From Sulfobacillus thermosulfidooxidans (GTDB taxonomy: Bacteria; Bacillota; Sulfobacillia; Sulfobacillales; Sulfobacillaceae), in NCBI RefSeq assembly GCF_001280565.1, contig NZ_LGRO01000001.1:930001-994000 (forward strand): 64,000 nt of DNA. Direction: 5' to 3'. The notes under the pieces are model-generated. The model did no database searches. It had not been told where the DNA came from and saw only the letters and a list, made by a program, of their open reading frames with translations. How positions within the stretch are numbered: the first letter of the stretch is position 1; every line of letters begins with the position of its first letter. Below are positions 22,010 to 51,459 of this stretch, one piece after another. The position numbers were made by a program, and so were the translations under genes.

Positions 22010-22026
22010 CAAAATATACCTTGATA

Positions 22027-22196
22027 ACGCCGAATTCGATTAAGAAGCGGAGGACCCGTTCCTTTTGGGGTGAATTGCTATGCAACGGGCATGCTCGCAG
22101 CCCGAACCCGTCAGCTAACTTCGCAGGCGTAGGGGGCTCAAGGTCTAATAATTCATTTGACTCCTTCCCCCGGGAAATATCCGGGGCTTTGTTTTG
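22027..22196 (+). promoter_or_regulatory. cyclic-di-AMP riboswitch (ydaO/yuaA type) with terminator
   Basis: The leader contains the hallmark conserved blocks of the ydaO class: CGCCGAA at the start, GCGGAGGACCC, TTGGGGTGAAT, and AGCCCGAACCCGTCAGCTAA, ending GCGTAGGGGG (aptamer about 22027-22135). It is followed by a terminator hairpin, CCCCGG (22168-22173) with CCGGGG (22181-22186), and a T-rich tail (to 22196), then the gene's ribosome site. In known members c-di-AMP binding favours termination, so high c-di-AMP should switch the downstream genes off. Confidence 0.92.
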
Positions 22197-43131: not shown

Positions 43132-43160
43132 AAGGCCAGGGGTTTATTCCCTGGCCTTTT
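43132..43160 (+). terminator. bidirectional terminator between convergent genes
   Basis: AAGGCCAGGG (43132-43141) pairs perfectly with CCCTGGCCTT (43149-43158), with AAAACC before and TTTTA after. It overlaps the stop of the minus-strand gene. Confidence 0.9.
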
Positions 43161-44283
43161 ACGATCCGGCCTTATCCAAGGCATCGAGAATATCATGAAG
43201 TAAATCTGCTGTGGATTCCAGACCAACCGAAATACGGACAACATCCGGCGTGATTTGCCGTTCATAGCGCTCTTCCGGGGTCAAAGCGGCATGGCAGTGC
43301 AATTCGGGCAAGGAGATAATGGTCTCAGTCCCACCAAACCCGGCACCAACCCGGGCTAAGCGGAGATGATGAGCCAATTCTGGGACTAGGCCAGCATCCT
43401 TTAAACGGATGGTGAGCATTTGCCCAAATCCACGCATAGTTTGTTTGGCAATTTCATGTCCCGGATGCGTCTTCAGGCCGGGATAATAGACTCGTTGCAC
43501 CCGGGGATGGGTCACAAGGGCCGTTGCGAGTTGCATTGCGGTTTCTTGGGCGCGGTCCATGCGCACGGGCAATGTATGGAGTCCACGCAAACTCATGTAG
43601 GCATCGTCGGGTGATAGAATGGCCCCACAGGCATTTTGGATAAAGTACAGCCGTCGGGCCAGGTCTTCTTCTTTAGCCACGGCAACCCCCGCGGTTATGT
43701 CAGAATGACCGCCGATCATCTTGGTCGCAGAATGAATAACCAAATCGGCACCTTGTGTTAATGGGTTTTGTAAATATGGCGTAATGAATGTATTGTCAAC
43801 CATCACCAGCAACTGGTGTTGGTGAGCCCATTGTGCCAAACGGGGCATATCGGTTACATGCAAAAAGGGATTACTGAAATTTTCGACCAAAATCGCTTGA
43901 GTATTGGGTCTTACGGCTTTTTCCAGGGCATCAAAATCTTCTGTATCCACATAACTCACCTGAATGCCAAAACGACTAAAAACGCCCCGTAGAACGCGCT
44001 GGGTGCCTCCTTGGCAGTCGCGGGTGACAATAAGATGATCTCCTTGAGATAACAGCATAAATGCTGCGGTTAACGCGGCCATTCCCGATGCAAACGCAAA
44101 TCCCTTCACACCGTGTTCCAAATCGGCCATCGCTTGTTCGAAGGCATGACGGGTGGGATTCCCTGAACGAGCATAGTCATAGGGGGGAGGATCCCAAGGA
44201 TCCGCTTGATGATAGGTAGTCGCCCGGTAAATGGGAGGAGTGACTGCCTGAGTGGCCGGATCAATTTCGTAACCGGTATGCAC
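43159..44283 (-). CDS. trans-sulfuration PLP enzyme (cystathionine gamma-synthase/beta-lyase family)
   Basis: 374 residues if the GTG at 44283 is used. The PLP lysine is in IHSATKMIGGHSD; PPIYRATTY, YARSGNPTRHAFEQA, and the C-terminal RISVGLESTADLLHD are family hallmarks. It acts in cysteine-methionine interconversion; gamma-synthase, beta-lyase and gamma-lyase cannot be separated safely. The coding frame stays open upstream with TQF before VHTGYEI, matching the family N terminus, and an ATT at about 44307 with AAGGAGTGA in front is the better-placed start (see findings). Confidence 0.88.
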   Translation of the reverse strand: MHTGYEIDPATQAVTPPIYRATTYHQADPWDPPPYDYARSGNPTRHAFEQAMADLEHGVKGFAFASGMAALTAAFMLLSQGDHLIVTRDCQGGTQRVLRGVFSRFGIQVSYVDTEDFDALEKAVRPNTQAILVENFSNPFLHVTDMPRLAQWAHQHQLLVMVDNTFITPYLQNPLTQGADLVIHSATKMIGGHSDITAGVAVAKEEDLARRLYFIQNACGAILSPDDAYMSLRGLHTLPVRMDRAQETAMQLATALVTHPRVQRVYYPGLKTHPGHEIAKQTMRGFGQMLTIRLKDAGLVPELAHHLRLARVGAGFGGTETIISLPELHCHAALTPEERYERQITPDVVRISVGLESTADLLHDILDALDKAGS

Positions 44284-44355
44284 AAACTGAGTGCGCTTGT
44301 CTGTAATCGCTATTCACTCCTTAAATGGTTCATAATGCGTATTCCAACATGACCT

Positions 44356-45510
44356 TTAGCGTAAGGCATTATCTAAATCCGTGAGCAGATCGTCAATGTG
44401 CTCAATGCCTACGGATAAGCGCATGAGTCCTGGAATAATGCCAAGTTGACGTCTCATTGGCTCTGGCAGTTCCCGGTGGGTTTCATTATAAGGATGCGTA
44501 ATTAAGGATTCTACGCCACCTAAACTAACCGCTGGTAATATCACTTGAAGCCTGTCCATGACAGATGCATAGTCTTCAGGATGTGTGAGAACGAATGACA
44601 ACATGGCCCCATAGCCCGAAGCCTGGCGTAAATGCCGTTCCTTCATATCATTGTCCGCGAGCTCAGGATAATACACGTGACGCACATTTTGATGATGGGA
44701 TAGAAAATTAGCAATACGGCGGGCATTACTTTCTTGGCGATCCATTCGAATGGCAAGGGTTTTTAAACCGCGAAGAAGTAGCCACGCGTCCCATGGTCCT
44801 AAAACGCTACCCGTTGCATTGGTTAGTTCATTAAGTTTGTCATATTGTTCCGCGGTTTTACACACAATGGCACCCGCTAACACGTCATTATGGCCTGCCA
44901 AGTACTTAGTTGCACTATACACGACGTAGTCGGCTCCAAGTTCCAGTGGACGCTGGCGAACAGCGGTCATGAATGTGTTGTCCACTGCCAATTCGGCGTG
45001 ATGTGCATGTGCAAGCTCAGCAAGATCCTCTAGAGGACTAATACGCAAAAGAGGATTACTCGGCGTTTCCACAATGAACAGGCGTGTTTTTGAGGTGATA
45101 TGTTGTTTGACCTCGTCGATATCGCGGGTATTAACCATGCTCGACGCGATGCCAAATTTGGAAAAGATGTCAACCATGATACGGTAAGTGCCGCCATAGG
45201 CATCTTCAGTAATAATGACGTGATCGCCTTGTTGTAAAGTGTGCACCAGTGCAGTCAGCGCGGCCATGCCACTACTATAAAGGAGGGCTCCTGCACCATT
45301 ATCTAACCGGTTAATCGCTTCTTGGGCCGCGTGCCGGGTGGGATTTTCGGTCCGGCTATAATCATAGGGACCTAATTCGGTTCCTGGATGCCGATATGTG
45401 ACAGTTTGATAAATTGGTGTGCTGACGGCCCCATAGAGACGGTCCTGTCCGACTCCAGAGTGAGCGGCTAGACTTTCTAGATGCCAATCGCGAGATTCGT
45501 GTGCCGGCAC
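44356..45510 (-). CDS. trans-sulfuration PLP enzyme, second paralogue
   Basis: 384 residues from a GTG with AAAGGA upstream. PLP lysine in VYSATKYLAGHND; STPIYQTVTYRHPG, YSRTENPTRHAAQEA and RLSVGIEHIDDLLTD. It is a paralogue of the next gene downstream, 72 bases away. The usual reading is that one copy makes cystathionine from cysteine and an activated homoserine and the other cleaves it to homocysteine, feeding the methionine genes at 47-51 kb. No SAM riboswitch precedes this pair. Confidence 0.88.
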   Translation of the reverse strand: MPAHESRDWHLESLAAHSGVGQDRLYGAVSTPIYQTVTYRHPGTELGPYDYSRTENPTRHAAQEAINRLDNGAGALLYSSGMAALTALVHTLQQGDHVIITEDAYGGTYRIMVDIFSKFGIASSMVNTRDIDEVKQHITSKTRLFIVETPSNPLLRISPLEDLAELAHAHHAELAVDNTFMTAVRQRPLELGADYVVYSATKYLAGHNDVLAGAIVCKTAEQYDKLNELTNATGSVLGPWDAWLLLRGLKTLAIRMDRQESNARRIANFLSHHQNVRHVYYPELADNDMKERHLRQASGYGAMLSFVLTHPEDYASVMDRLQVILPAVSLGGVESLITHPYNETHRELPEPMRRQLGIIPGLMRLSVGIEHIDDLLTDLDNALR

Positions 45511-46928: not shown

Positions 46929-47219
46929 TTAATGAAAAACATCGACCCAGAGACTATGAACCGAATGGGAAATTTGGGCTAACACATAGGTAAGAAATGC
47001 TCCCAGCAGTGCCCGAGTTGTTTTCCATGTTTCTAATTCATGTTGGAGATTGCCCAGCTCTTTAATGACGAAACTTAGTTGCCATAATATCAAGGCGCCA
47101 AGAATGAAAATGAGCAGGAAAACACGACGCAGGATGAGACGGCTCCGCGACCTTTTAGATTTAGTAACCAAACCGCCATGTTGCCGATCCTTGGAAACCG
47201 ATGACCCGGGAGAAGACAT
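46929..47219 (-). CDS. small membrane protein, function unknown
   Basis: 96 residues from the ATG at 47219, preceded by AGGAGGTGG, which is much better than the longer frame from 47411. A basic N-terminal stretch (KSKRSRSRLILRR) precedes a membrane segment (about 32-50) and a second, weaker one near residues 70-85. I do not recognise a family. Divergent from the SAM-riboswitch methionine operon. Confidence 0.6.
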   Translation of the reverse strand: MSSPGSSVSKDRQHGGLVTKSKRSRSRLILRRVFLLIFILGALILWQLSFVIKELGNLQHELETWKTTRALLGAFLTYVLAQISHSVHSLWVDVFH

Positions 47220-47292
47220 CGTACCACCTCCTAGATAGAAGCCTATCACGTATGGCAATAAATGGCAATTATAGATTTTTTCATTTGTCCTC

Positions 47293-47321
47293 TTGACCAT
47301 ACGGACAGGCCATGGTATTTT
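47293..47321 (+). promoter_or_regulatory. promoter for the SAM-riboswitch operon
   Basis: TTGACC (47293-47298), 17 bases, TATTTT (47316-47321). It starts a transcript close to the riboswitch 5' stem. Confidence 0.6.
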
Positions 47322-47344
47322 GCTAATCAATTCTATAGGAACAC

Positions 47345-47484
47345 TTCTTATCCAGAGTGGCGGAGGGACTGGCCCGATGAAGCCCGGCAACCCCTTTAGG
47401 GTGGGTGCCAATTCCGGAAGAATACTTTGTATTCTTTAAGATGAGAAGAGCATTGCGCCTCTTCTCGTGATAGGCGCTTTTTTT
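47345..47484 (+). promoter_or_regulatory. SAM-I (S-box) riboswitch with terminator
   Basis: CTTATCCAGAGTGGCGGAGGG, then CTGGCCCGATGAAGCCCGGCAACC and GGGTGCCAATTCC are diagnostic for the S-box. P1 is TTCTTATC with GATGAGAA. GAGAAGAG (47443-47450) can pair with CTCTTCTC (47459-47466) as antiterminator, competing with the terminator GCGCCT (47455-47460)/AGGCGC (47472-47477) followed by seven T. SAM binding should therefore stop transcription into the methionine genes. Confidence 0.96.
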
Positions 47485-47592
47485 ATGGTCATGCGCATAA
47501 ATGCACCATGCCGGATCCTAAGAAGATGAGACAAGCATGATAACCGATATTCACGGTATCAAATCATGCACGATAGGAGAGATACTGGAAAA

Positions 47593-48561
47593 ATGAAGAC
47601 GACTGTCATGGGCTCATATCCGAAAATTCCTGCGGGATCCGGGCCCAACGTACGTTCAGCCATTCAGCGATTCGAAAAAGGACTGTTGACTCCGAGCCAA
47701 CTGTTTGACACCTATAGCCAAGTGATTGGCCGCGTAGTTGATCTCGCTGCTGAAGCGCAATTGGACCGGACAACCGATGGACAAATTCGCTGGTACGACT
47801 TATTTGACCCGGTTGTGCGAGACTTGGATAACGTACAAAGTGCCGGATTAATTCGTTTGTTTGACAACAATTTTTACGTGCGTCATCCTTTAATTACTGG
47901 CCGCCTGCAATATCAAGGAGGAACATTAGCGGCGTGGTCCCGGGAAGCGGCAAAACGATCTCCAGTGCCGGTGAAAGTGGCTTTACCCGGTCTGTTTACA
48001 TTTCTCGAACTGGCGGAAGACAAAAGTTATGCGAATCAAGACGCTTTATTAGCCGATTTGATCGATGTCATGCGGTTAACCGTCAAGCATTTAGAGGATA
48101 CCGGCATTGTTGAATTGCAGTGGGATGAGCCGGCCTTGGCCCGTAACGCTACGCTTTCTCAAAATCAAGTCGAAGAAGCCTATCGAGCTTTACTTGATCC
48201 CGGTATTTCCTTAGAACAATCGATTGCCCTATATTGGGGAAAGTCAAGCCCGTGGCTTGAACGGTTATCAGCGTTGCCGTTTTCACGTATTTATTTTGAT
48301 GCAATCAGCGATCCCAGTATTTTAGATGTTTTATCTCAAACGGCGCTACCAATGGACGTAGGCGTCGGTCTTTTGGATGCACGGAATGTGCGGCTAGAAG
48401 AACCTCGTGAGGTCTTGCATCATCTTGAGCCGATTATTCGCAGACAAGGCGCTAGCAAAGTGTGGATTCACCCGAATTGTGGACTGGAATTTTTGCCTCC
48501 CGACAGGGCCGAGCAAAAGGTCCGTTTACTTAAAGATATCAAGACATTGATTAACGCTTAA
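47593..48561 (+). CDS. MetE-like protein resembling the N-terminal half of cobalamin-independent methionine synthase
   Basis: 322 residues from the ATG at 47593 (GGAGAG about 11 bases upstream). It has the MetE TIM-barrel fold signals: VMGSYPKI, QWDEPAL and WIHPNCGLEF. The zinc ligand pair HxC of the catalytic half is missing: the corresponding strand reads ALYWGKSSPWL, similar to the TYFG strand of the folate-binding N-terminal MetE domain, followed by VGVGLLDARNVR. Located first in the SAM-controlled operon, 22 bases before a paralogue that does carry the ligands. I infer that the two act together as a split MetE. Confidence 0.78.
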   Translation: MKTTVMGSYPKIPAGSGPNVRSAIQRFEKGLLTPSQLFDTYSQVIGRVVDLAAEAQLDRTTDGQIRWYDLFDPVVRDLDNVQSAGLIRLFDNNFYVRHPLITGRLQYQGGTLAAWSREAAKRSPVPVKVALPGLFTFLELAEDKSYANQDALLADLIDVMRLTVKHLEDTGIVELQWDEPALARNATLSQNQVEEAYRALLDPGISLEQSIALYWGKSSPWLERLSALPFSRIYFDAISDPSILDVLSQTALPMDVGVGLLDARNVRLEEPREVLHHLEPIIRRQGASKVWIHPNCGLEFLPPDRAEQKVRLLKDIKTLINA

Positions 48562-48583
48562 AGGAAAGAAAGGACGGACCTTG

Positions 48584-49570
48584 ATGGCAAAACATTTATT
48601 AACCACCAGTGTGGGAAGTTTTCCGAAACCTGGCAAGTTGATTACGGCACGTTCTCAATTTCGACGGGGCCAAATTTCGTTGGAACAGTTACAACAAGCC
48701 GAAGAGGAGGCAACACGCCAAGTCATTGCTTTGCAGGAAGAATTAGGCATTGACATTTTTGTGCACGGTGAAATGGAACGGGGCGATATGGTCGCCTATT
48801 TCGCTGAGAACTGGCAAGGATTTTCTGAATCGTTGCCGGTCCGTTCATATGGTAATCGGTACTATCGCAAGCCGATTGTGGAAAATGTGGTGGCCCTAGG
48901 GGATTCTGTTGGACTGACGGTAAAATCATGGCAAAAGGCCTCGCAAATGACGAATAAACCCGTGAAGGGAATGCTGACAGGGCCTTATACTATTTGCGAC
49001 TGGTCATTTAACGCGTATTATCCCGATCGCCGTTCGTTGGTTATGGACTTGGCCCATTTAGTGCACGAAGAAGCGGTGGCATTGGAGAATGCCGGTGCTC
49101 AATATATTCAAATTGATGAGCCCGCTATTTCCACACGGCCTGAGGAGTTAGATTTGGCGATCGAAGCAATGGCCATTGTGACCAAGGGACTTCGTGCTAA
49201 AACAATCAGTCACATTTGTTATGGGGATTTCGAGACGATTTTACCCGGTCTCTTTGATTTGCCCGTCGATCAATTAGATTTGGAAGCGGCTAATCAACAT
49301 TTTGCGTTGCTTGACTTATTGGGTCGTTATCGTTGGCCAAAATCTAAGGAACTAGCCTTAGGCGTTGTCGACGTGCATACTCACCGGATTGAGTCCGTTG
49401 ACGAAGTCAAAGCGGGAATTCGCCGGGCATTAGAAATTGTTCCCCTAGATAATTTGTTAATTGATCCGGATTGCGGGTTAAAAACCCGGACTTGGGAAGA
49501 AGCTGAGCAGAAGTTGCGGGTAATGGCGCAAGCAGTACAAGAGGTCCGTGAAGAGGACGGGTTGCAGTGA
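48584..49570 (+). CDS. MetE-like methionine synthase, catalytic (C-terminal-type) half
   Basis: 328 residues from the ATG at 48584 after AAAGGACGG. TTSVGSFPKP at the start, IQIDEPAISTRPEE, the zinc pair in SHICYGDF and the third cysteine in IDPDCGLKTR match the catalytic domain of MetE. It should transfer a methyl group to homocysteine. Being half-length, it could be a core-MetE that takes methyl from a protein donor, or the catalytic partner of the preceding protein. Overlaps the next gene by 4 bases. Confidence 0.85.
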   Translation: MAKHLLTTSVGSFPKPGKLITARSQFRRGQISLEQLQQAEEEATRQVIALQEELGIDIFVHGEMERGDMVAYFAENWQGFSESLPVRSYGNRYYRKPIVENVVALGDSVGLTVKSWQKASQMTNKPVKGMLTGPYTICDWSFNAYYPDRRSLVMDLAHLVHEEAVALENAGAQYIQIDEPAISTRPEELDLAIEAMAIVTKGLRAKTISHICYGDFETILPGLFDLPVDQLDLEAANQHFALLDLLGRYRWPKSKELALGVVDVHTHRIESVDEVKAGIRRALEIVPLDNLLIDPDCGLKTRTWEEAEQKLRVMAQAVQEVREEDGLQ

Positions 49571-51459
49571 AGACCTTAAGCCAAGTGCTGCAAGATGCGG
49601 GCTGGATTTTGGGTGACGGGGCTGTCGGAACCGCTTTAATGGATGAAGGGGTAGAGTCAATTGCTCTACCCTTAGTTCCCTTACGCCAACCCGACGTGTT
49701 GATGAATTTACACCTGAAATATCTGGAAGCCGGAGCACGACTAATCGAAACGCATACGTTTTCTGCTAACGGACATAAACTCGCAGCGCTGGGTATTGAC
49801 GCCGATGTGGTGGAGTTAAATCGCCGGGCCGCTCAAATTGCCCGCCATGCTCGTGATATTTTTGGCGGCGAAGCATGGATTCTTGGCGTCGTGGGTCCTT
49901 TGGCCCAACCCGTTGATTCCCAGGTGATGCCTTCCGTACCCTATGCAGAGGCACTCGAATATTTTCGCCCGGTGGTTGCTGGCTTGCTAGCGGGTGGTGT
50001 TGATGGATTTATCGTTGAAACCATGTCCGACTTACCGACTGTGCGTGCTGCGGTTGAGGCCATTCGTTCTGAGACAAATCTGCCTATTGCCGTTTCTTTT
50101 GCCTTTTCTCCACAAGGGACCACGCGCTATGGGCTCAGTCCTGAAGAAGCCATTGAAGCCATGGCATCTTTGCCAGGTGGGTTACCGGCTTTAGTGGGGG
50201 CAAATTGCGGTAGCGGACCAGCTCCCCTGTTAGATGCCATTATTCGGATGGCACCTAAGGCCAAGGAACTAGGTATTCCTTTGGCAGCTTATCCTAATGC
50301 CGGTCAGCCTGGTCTGGTTGCGGGACATGTTCATTATCCTGCTACGCCACGCTATGTGGCCACGATTGCCTCTGCCCTACGAGAAGCGGGATGCCATGTC
50401 ATTGGGGGCTGCTGTGGGACCACTGCTGAGCATATTCGAGCGCTTCAAATGACATTAAGTCATGATTCAAAACCTCAACTCATACCTTCGGTGAGAGATA
50501 TCACCGATGCCAGTGCGTCTTTAGAGATTAGTCATAGTGAAAGTCATGACCAGGGAATTTCCCAGTTTTTTTACAAACGATTTATCATTAGCGTTGAATT
50601 AGATCCACCGCGTGGTGTGAATCCTCATCGACTATTGGATTCAGCGCGCGTTGTAACCGAGCATGGAGCCGATTGTATTAATATCGGAGACAGCCCCATG
50701 GCGCGTGTGAGGTTGAGTGCTTTAGCGACAGCACGTTTGATCTCTGAACATCTCCCAGTGCAAACCATATTGCATTTTACCACCCGGGACAGAAATTTGA
50801 TGGGCCTGCAGAGTGATCTTTTAGGGGCCCATGCATTAGGCATTCGCAATGTTCTGGCCTTAACCGGGGATCCACCGGGATTAGGTGATTATGCGCATGC
50901 GACGGCTGTCTATGACATCAATTCCATCGGATTAGTCAAGGTGCTGAATGCATTTAATGCGGGACAGGACGCTCTCGGTCAAAAAATTGGGGGTCATACG
51001 GCGTTTGATATCGGTGTTGGGGTAAATCCTAATGCCGATGATTTGGATCACGAATTACAACGGTTTCGGGAAAAGTTAGAGGCCGGTGCCCATTTCGTGA
51101 TGTCACAACCAATTTATCAACCTGAGCAACTCGAAAGGTTTCTGGACAAATTAGGAGGATTGCCAGTGCCTTTGCTATTAGGTGTTATGCCCCTGGTGTC
51201 CTACCGCCAAGCTGTGTATTTGCATAATGAAGTGCCTGGTATCATCATTGGGCAAAACATTCTTGAACAGTTCGAGAATATTCAAGACGGAACAGCGTTA
51301 GGTATCGATTTGGCCTTGAAATTGATGGAGCAGCTTATGCCGCTCATTCAGGGGGTTTATTTGGTGCCGTCCTTTAATCGAGTGGAACCATTATTACCGA
51401 TTATAGAGTACCTCCGGCGCCAGGATCCGTGGAAAGCAAAAGTTCAGGGTGAGAACTAA
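49567..51459 (+). CDS. yitJ: bifunctional homocysteine S-methyltransferase / 5,10-methylene-THF reductase (YitJ-like)
   Basis: 630 residues from a GTG overlapping the preceding stop. Residues about 1-300 are a homocysteine S-methyltransferase domain with cysteine ligands in GANCGSG and VIGGCCGTTAEH; about 335-620 are a MetF-type reductase (SVELDPPRG, NIGDSP, ALTGDPPG, FVMSQPIYQ). The same fusion, YitJ, is S-box controlled in Bacillus. It supplies methyl-THF and can itself methylate homocysteine. The last 59 bases overlap the convergent otsB gene. Confidence 0.93.
   Translation: MKTLSQVLQDAGWILGDGAVGTALMDEGVESIALPLVPLRQPDVLMNLHLKYLEAGARLIETHTFSANGHKLAALGIDADVVELNRRAAQIARHARDIFGGEAWILGVVGPLAQPVDSQVMPSVPYAEALEYFRPVVAGLLAGGVDGFIVETMSDLPTVRAAVEAIRSETNLPIAVSFAFSPQGTTRYGLSPEEAIEAMASLPGGLPALVGANCGSGPAPLLDAIIRMAPKAKELGIPLAAYPNAGQPGLVAGHVHYPATPRYVATIASALREAGCHVIGGCCGTTAEHIRALQMTLSHDSKPQLIPSVRDITDASASLEISHSESHDQGISQFFYKRFIISVELDPPRGVNPHRLLDSARVVTEHGADCINIGDSPMARVRLSALATARLISEHLPVQTILHFTTRDRNLMGLQSDLLGAHALGIRNVLALTGDPPGLGDYAHATAVYDINSIGLVKVLNAFNAGQDALGQKIGGHTAFDIGVGVNPNADDLDHELQRFREKLEAGAHFVMSQPIYQPEQLERFLDKLGGLPVPLLLGVMPLVSYRQAVYLHNEVPGIIIGQNILEQFENIQDGTALGIDLALKLMEQLMPLIQGVYLVPSFNRVEPLLPIIEYLRRQDPWKAKVQGEN

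Follow-up and report, generated by a model that had tools for sequence, protein, structure and literature searches.

Half-length relatives of the cobalamin-independent methionine synthase MetE occur side by side in a stretch of 64,000 nucleotides of the Sulfobacillus thermosulfidooxidans genome (hereafter the window). This arrangement raises the question whether the two proteins, P1 and P2, together form one enzyme or whether methionine is made by one of them, or by the product of the next gene, P3. An earlier note on this DNA had read the pair as a possible two-subunit methionine synthase. Our analysis supports this reading through the barrel folds of both proteins, the N-half-type residues of P1, the full ligand set of P2, the strict co-inheritance of the genes and the lack of another synthase. 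We consider it highly likely that the operon encodes a two-subunit, cobalamin-independent methionine synthase that receives methyl-THF from its neighbour P3, and that it constitutes a complete homocysteine-remethylation unit.

Organization of the operon and its leader

The operon lies on the forward strand in the order SAM-I aptamer, terminator/antiterminator, P1, P2 and P3. The SAM-I (S-box) aptamer (47345–47447) matches RF00162 over its full length with 89.9 bits, compared to a gathering score of 44.4 bits, and a homologous aptamer was found at the same place in 30 relatives from the order. P1 (47593–48561) has 322 amino acids, P2 (48584–49570) 328 and P3 (49567–51459) 630; the start of P3 overlaps the stop codon of P2 by 4 nt. 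The SAM-riboswitch operon described in the earlier note is thereby confirmed. An in-frame ATG at 47566 would extend P1 upstream, but ATG 47593 is the likely start because relatives begin at residue 9–10 of the longer reading. For P2, ATG 48584 fits, with 48581 as the alternative. In one relative (G008) P1 appeared to be disrupted by a TGA, which turned out to sit just before the start codon of an intact gene. A listed open reading frame on the reverse strand (46929–47411) runs antisense into the aptamer from a TTG; its true start is probably further in.

The intrinsic terminator (47455–47484) consists of GCGCCT (47455–47460) paired with AGGCGC (47472–47477) and followed by seven T residues. 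In the antiterminator (47441–47468), ATGAGAAGAG (47441–47450) pairs with exact complementarity with CTCTTCTCGT (47459–47468). The former segment is the 3′ strand of the first aptamer helix (helix P1), and the antiterminator competes with the terminator. The terminator is present in 31 of 31 genomes of the order, compared to 11% of shuffles, and the competing helix in 29 of 31, compared to 3% of shuffles. The switch was assessed by this explicit pairing and not by the minimum-free-energy fold of the leader, in which the SAM-bound form is absent and the antiterminator is the stabler fold. In vivo, the riboswitch would be expected to respond to SAM. At low SAM concentration the aptamer would be empty, the antiterminator would form and the three genes would be transcribed; at high SAM concentration the aptamer would close and the terminator would form.

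The source genome carries four SAM-I switches in total. Besides the one described here, one precedes metK and two precede genes for PLP-type sulfhydrylases or lyases (named from their first residues). Near the operon, on the opposite strand (43159–45510), are two tandem genes resembling PLP-dependent cystathionine synthases or lyases, with no SAM-I match of their own. A c-di-AMP (ydaO/yuaA) riboswitch was also found in the window (22018–22144, forward strand, 92 bits). The S-box regulon of Bacillus subtilis includes metE, yitJ and yxjG/H, and SAM-I control of a MetE-type synthase and of YitJ is common to both organisms; B. subtilis, however, has a fused MetE and transcribes these genes as separate units.

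P1 and P2 correspond to the two barrels of MetE

P1 and P2 are separate proteins within the size limit for split MetE (at most 400 amino acids each). P1 is weakly similar to both MetE barrels, with 80.2 bits against PF01717 and 74 bits against PF08267. Its structure model, built from 31 orthologues (mean pLDDT 88.4), matches the N-terminal barrel in all solved full-length MetE structures listed (Z 31.5–33.6, rmsd 2.2–2.6), with superposition on residues 1–351 of the Thermotoga maritima and 2–379 of the Candida albicans enzyme. P1 falls with the N-halves in a joint tree of both barrels, in which the branch between N and C has support of 100/99. P1 is therefore orthologous to the N-half of MetE. 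P2 scores 275 bits against PF01717, and its model (pLDDT 88.8) aligns to the C-terminal barrel of solved MetE (best Z about 37, rmsd 1.8–2.3; residues 400–743 of the MetE structures, 400–733 in T. maritima). The two tandem half-length MetE-like proteins of the earlier note are thus an N-barrel and a C-barrel protein.

Zinc and homocysteine residues were taken from the list for Escherichia coli MetE (PMC7857596). By alignment, P2 has all four zinc ligands (H210, C212, E234, C297), as had been claimed before, and the three homocysteine residues (S12, E63, D178). Among 107 aligned catalytic proteins, the equivalents of H641, C643, C726, E484 and D599 are invariant, that of S433 is found in 106 and that of E665 in 101. 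In six catalytic subunits (L124, L129, L138, L141, L152, L154), which come from Chloroflexota, Methylomirabilota and Rokubacteria, Ala occupies the position of the zinc ligand E665, and the alignment around it is clean in those inspected. At the positions of H641, C643 and E665, P1 carries Ala, Tyr and Asp; the Tyr and Asp are common to P1 and the N-halves of fused MetE. The previous statement that P1 lacks HxC is right, but the last Cys, at the C726 position, is retained (HPNCGLE), as it is in fused N-halves. Likewise, P1 is an N-terminal half by fold and tree, whereas calling it folate-binding was loose: folate occupies the cleft that separates the barrels, and a structural study of MetE calls the term 'folate-binding domain' inappropriate (PMC539065).

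Price et al. recognise an N subunit by a PF08267 score above the PF01717 score (PMC7857596). For P1 of the window the two scores are in the reverse order, while a close orthologue (L047) gives 95.7 bits for PF08267 and 82.9 bits for PF01717. As 7 of the 10 N-subunits tested fail this rule, it describes a detection threshold and not a property of split MetE.

The folate site between the barrels

The pterin contacts in T. maritima MetE are Lys104, Arg15 and Lys18 on the N-barrel side and Trp539, Glu583, Arg493 and Arg496 on the C-barrel side, with Glu583 holding the pterin N3/2-NH2 (PMC539065). The equivalents are R88, P18 and R21 in P1 and W140, T184, R92 and R95 in P2. All 115 N-subunits have Arg at the Lys104 position, and 96 of them have Arg at the Lys18 position. 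Trp is found at the Trp539 position in 104 of the 107 catalytic proteins, the three exceptions being other PF01717 paralogues in the set, and the Arg493 equivalent is kept in 101. P2 has no equivalent of Glu583, with Thr184 on a shorter loop instead. Given this absence and the Pro in place of Arg15 in P1, pterin recognition must differ in detail. Where pterin recognition is concerned, the main question is raised by the missing Glu583 of split MetE. Haloarchaeal split MetE lacks the equivalents of Arg493 and Lys18, and the Halobellus pair is close to a methylene-H4MPT reductase gene. Both observations fit the use of a different pterin in these archaea.

Conservation in the order and in other phyla

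Within the order, P1 is present in 31 of 42 genomes; a 32nd match was rejected as a weak paralogue. P2 directly follows P1 wherever the contig continues, SAM-I lies upstream of P1 in 31 of 31 and P3 is present in 30 of 31, so that the arrangement of riboswitch, P1 and P2 is not due to chance. In Sulfobacillus thermotolerans (CP019454, L116) the identity is 70% for P1, 86% for P2 and 75% for P3. In the 11 genomes that lack P1, PF02574 proteins are missing as well, and the unit is therefore gained or lost as a block. Genomes G002–G005, G009, G030, G032, G033 and G035 of the order have neither split MetE nor YitJ nor any PF02574 protein, and carry only PF01717 paralogues of 370–500 amino acids. 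Pieces of group II introns were seen in the loci of two relatives (L051 and L055).

An alignment of P1 with its relatives was used to scan named genomes. Of the 151 relatives obtained, 80 were retained: 18 from Bacillota, 16 from Chloroflexota, 15 from Omnitrophota, 10 from Actinomycetota, 8 from Zixibacteria, 4 from Hadarchaeota, 3 from Methylomirabilota and some others. Most of these loci are from metagenome bins, and single taxon assignments may be wrong; the tree of P1 relatives groups the loci mostly by phylum. The catalytic gene directly follows the N-subunit gene in 69 of the 80 loci. Of the remaining 11, five contain part of a catalytic gene, truncated where the locus ends, and in the others no such gene was found. 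At a threshold of E 1e-40, matches occurred in 19 of 251 sampled Chloroflexota and 17 of 246 sampled Actinomycetota genomes, a few of which are probably catalytic subunits only. A SAM-I riboswitch lies just upstream in 9 of 10 Actinomycetota loci, while none was detected in the scanned split MetE loci of Chloroflexota, Omnitrophota, Zixibacteria, Methylomirabilota and Limnochordales. Two Limnochordales loci (L073, L074) have the same three-gene order with no SAM-I match. In Actinomycetota bins L089, L094, L098, L107, L112, L117 and L123 a TPP riboswitch is directly downstream of the split metE pair. The two-gene MetE is standard in the order Sulfobacillales and present in several other bacterial phyla.

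Which protein makes methionine

P3 scores 610 bits against NF006396, the model for bifunctional homocysteine S-methyltransferase/methylenetetrahydrofolate reductase (cut-off 453), which bears out the YitJ-type fusion that had been proposed to follow the pair. The source genome (3.83 Mb, 3 contigs, completeness 99.98) looks complete, and absences across it were assessed by HMM searches. P1 and P2 are its only two PF01717 proteins, and P3 is its sole PF02574 and sole PF02219 (MTHFR) protein. These searches found no other MetE-type synthase, no MetH and no CoFeSP. With no other PF01717, PF02574 or MTHFR gene in the genome, the operon is the only recognised homocysteine-remethylation pathway.

P2 holds the whole zinc and homocysteine site by itself, and single-barrel enzymes with such activity exist (PMC7005905). 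P2 could thus be a core methionine synthase (of the MesA/B/C or core-MetE type) that uses methylcobalamin or a corrinoid protein, with P1 as an accessory or unrelated paralogue. A stand-alone B12-binding domain protein of 133 amino acids, the only one in the genome, would suit this reading, but the HMM search found no CdhD-type corrinoid (CoFeSP) subunit. Moreover, P1 adjoins P2 wherever it is found in the order and in most named loci from many phyla, the gene for the donor-forming MTHFR is co-transcribed, and the folate-holding residues of fused MetE are kept in both proteins (Trp140 and Arg92 of P2, Arg88 and Arg21 of P1). We therefore consider a core synthase very improbable.

A slightly smaller chance still is given to the reading that the homocysteine S-methyltransferase half of P3, whose PF02574 domain is intact (212.8 bits), is the methionine synthase. 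P1 and P2 would then have another role, for example with a different methyl donor or thiol in the manner of YxjG/YxjH-type proteins; many genomes contain single-barrel MetE paralogues of unassigned role. However, P1 and P2 are orthologous to MetE halves by fold and tree, and PF02574 is absent from the split-MetE genomes of Actinomycetota and Hadarchaeota and from some of those of Chloroflexota and Omnitrophota. P1 and P2 must therefore make methionine there if these genomes, whose completeness is unknown, are taken at face value.

In the favoured two-subunit synthase, P1 and P2 probably form a heteromer, with methyl-THF as the probable methyl donor. The MTHFR half of P3 would reduce methylene-THF to methyl-THF. 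P1 and P2 would pack against each other face to face, as the barrels of fused MetE do, with the pterin in the intervening cleft, where Trp140 and Arg92/Arg95 of P2 and Arg88/Arg21 of P1 would hold it. The zinc site of P2 would bind and activate homocysteine, and the methyl group would be transferred directly without cobalamin.

Evolution of split and fused MetE

The joint tree, calculated with the careful method on 60 rows, covers both barrels of split and of fused MetE. It separates all N-halves, split and fused, from all C-halves. Independent duplications, with split N and C together against fused MetE, were rejected with a p-AU of 0.0008 (quick tree, smaller set). One duplication therefore preceded the divergence of split and fused forms. 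When the tree is rooted on the duplication, fused N-halves lie inside split N (99/96), beside a group of Hadarchaeota and Methylomirabilota, and fused C-halves lie inside split C (100/99) with haloarchaea outside.

Split MetE may accordingly be old and widespread in bacteria (at least Bacillota, Actinomycetota, Chloroflexota, Omnitrophota, Zixibacteria and Methylomirabilota), with fused MetE as a later fusion inside split lineages and the operon as the ancestral state. We hold this only tentatively, at somewhat less than even chance, because the tree has long branches (2.6 for fused N, 2.1 for haloarchaeal N), its sample includes just six fused MetE, and Thermoproteota and Thermococci are missing from it. 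Fission would be the simplest route to half genes, and the closest described systems are archaeal (PMC7857596). Nevertheless, it appears unlikely that a fused bacterial MetE was split recently or that the pair was recently acquired from archaea. In the joint tree, all fused MetE sampled are distant from split P1 and P2, and the Sulfobacillales pair clusters with Limnochordales within a bacterial set, away from haloarchaea, although the branches of the haloarchaeal proteins are long and the sample does not extend to other archaeal classes. A recent transfer from haloarchaea in particular is unsupported.

Relation to known methionine synthases and significance

The core idea of a split MetE is not new, and the window holds a bacterial case of the published system. 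Split MetE was described as primarily archaeal, with one bacterium named, Sulfobacillus sp. hq2, in a list that its authors state is incomplete (Price et al. 2021, PMC7857596). The characterisation of the pair as known in outline from archaea was thus right about the published, mainly archaeal record and missed the named Sulfobacillus. A literature search for the phrase 'split MetE' yielded no relevant description beyond this paper, and no biochemical data for a bacterial split MetE were found in the literature searched. What is added here is riboswitch control together with a dedicated MTHFR, the status as sole synthase and a broad bacterial range; breadth beyond Sulfobacillus was not reported by Price et al. 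The PF08267 rule, which most of the N-subunits tested here fail, may explain part of their narrower range.

Archaeal split MetE (Pyrococcus furiosus PF1268/PF1269, which form a complex, Pyrolobus fumarii and Halobacteria; PMC7857596) likewise consists of adjacent half-length genes for an N and a C barrel as the sole methionine synthase. The operon of the window differs in its SAM-I riboswitch, in the co-transcribed YitJ-type MTHFR fusion and in the expected donor, methyl-THF instead of an archaeal pterin. With fused MetE (E. coli b3829, T. maritima 1XPG) it shares both barrels, the zinc and homocysteine ligands, the DMV motif and the pterin-stacking Trp. It differs in having two polypeptides with no interdomain linker, a shorter version of the Glu583-bearing loop, and Arg in place of Lys18 and Lys104 on the N side. 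The core methionine synthases (MesA–MesD, core-MetE) are single barrels with the catalytic site seen in P2, but have no N-barrel partner and do not use folate.

With the barrels on two subunits, their roles can be tested separately, which is not possible with the fused enzyme. The bacterial spread is relevant to annotation: N-subunits often have their highest score with the model of the catalytic domain and are then missed by a best-domain rule, and genomes can then be misread as those of methionine auxotrophs or B12-dependent organisms. If the tree holds with wider sampling, the textbook statement that MetE evolved by duplication would become a testable order of events: duplication, two genes and later fusion.
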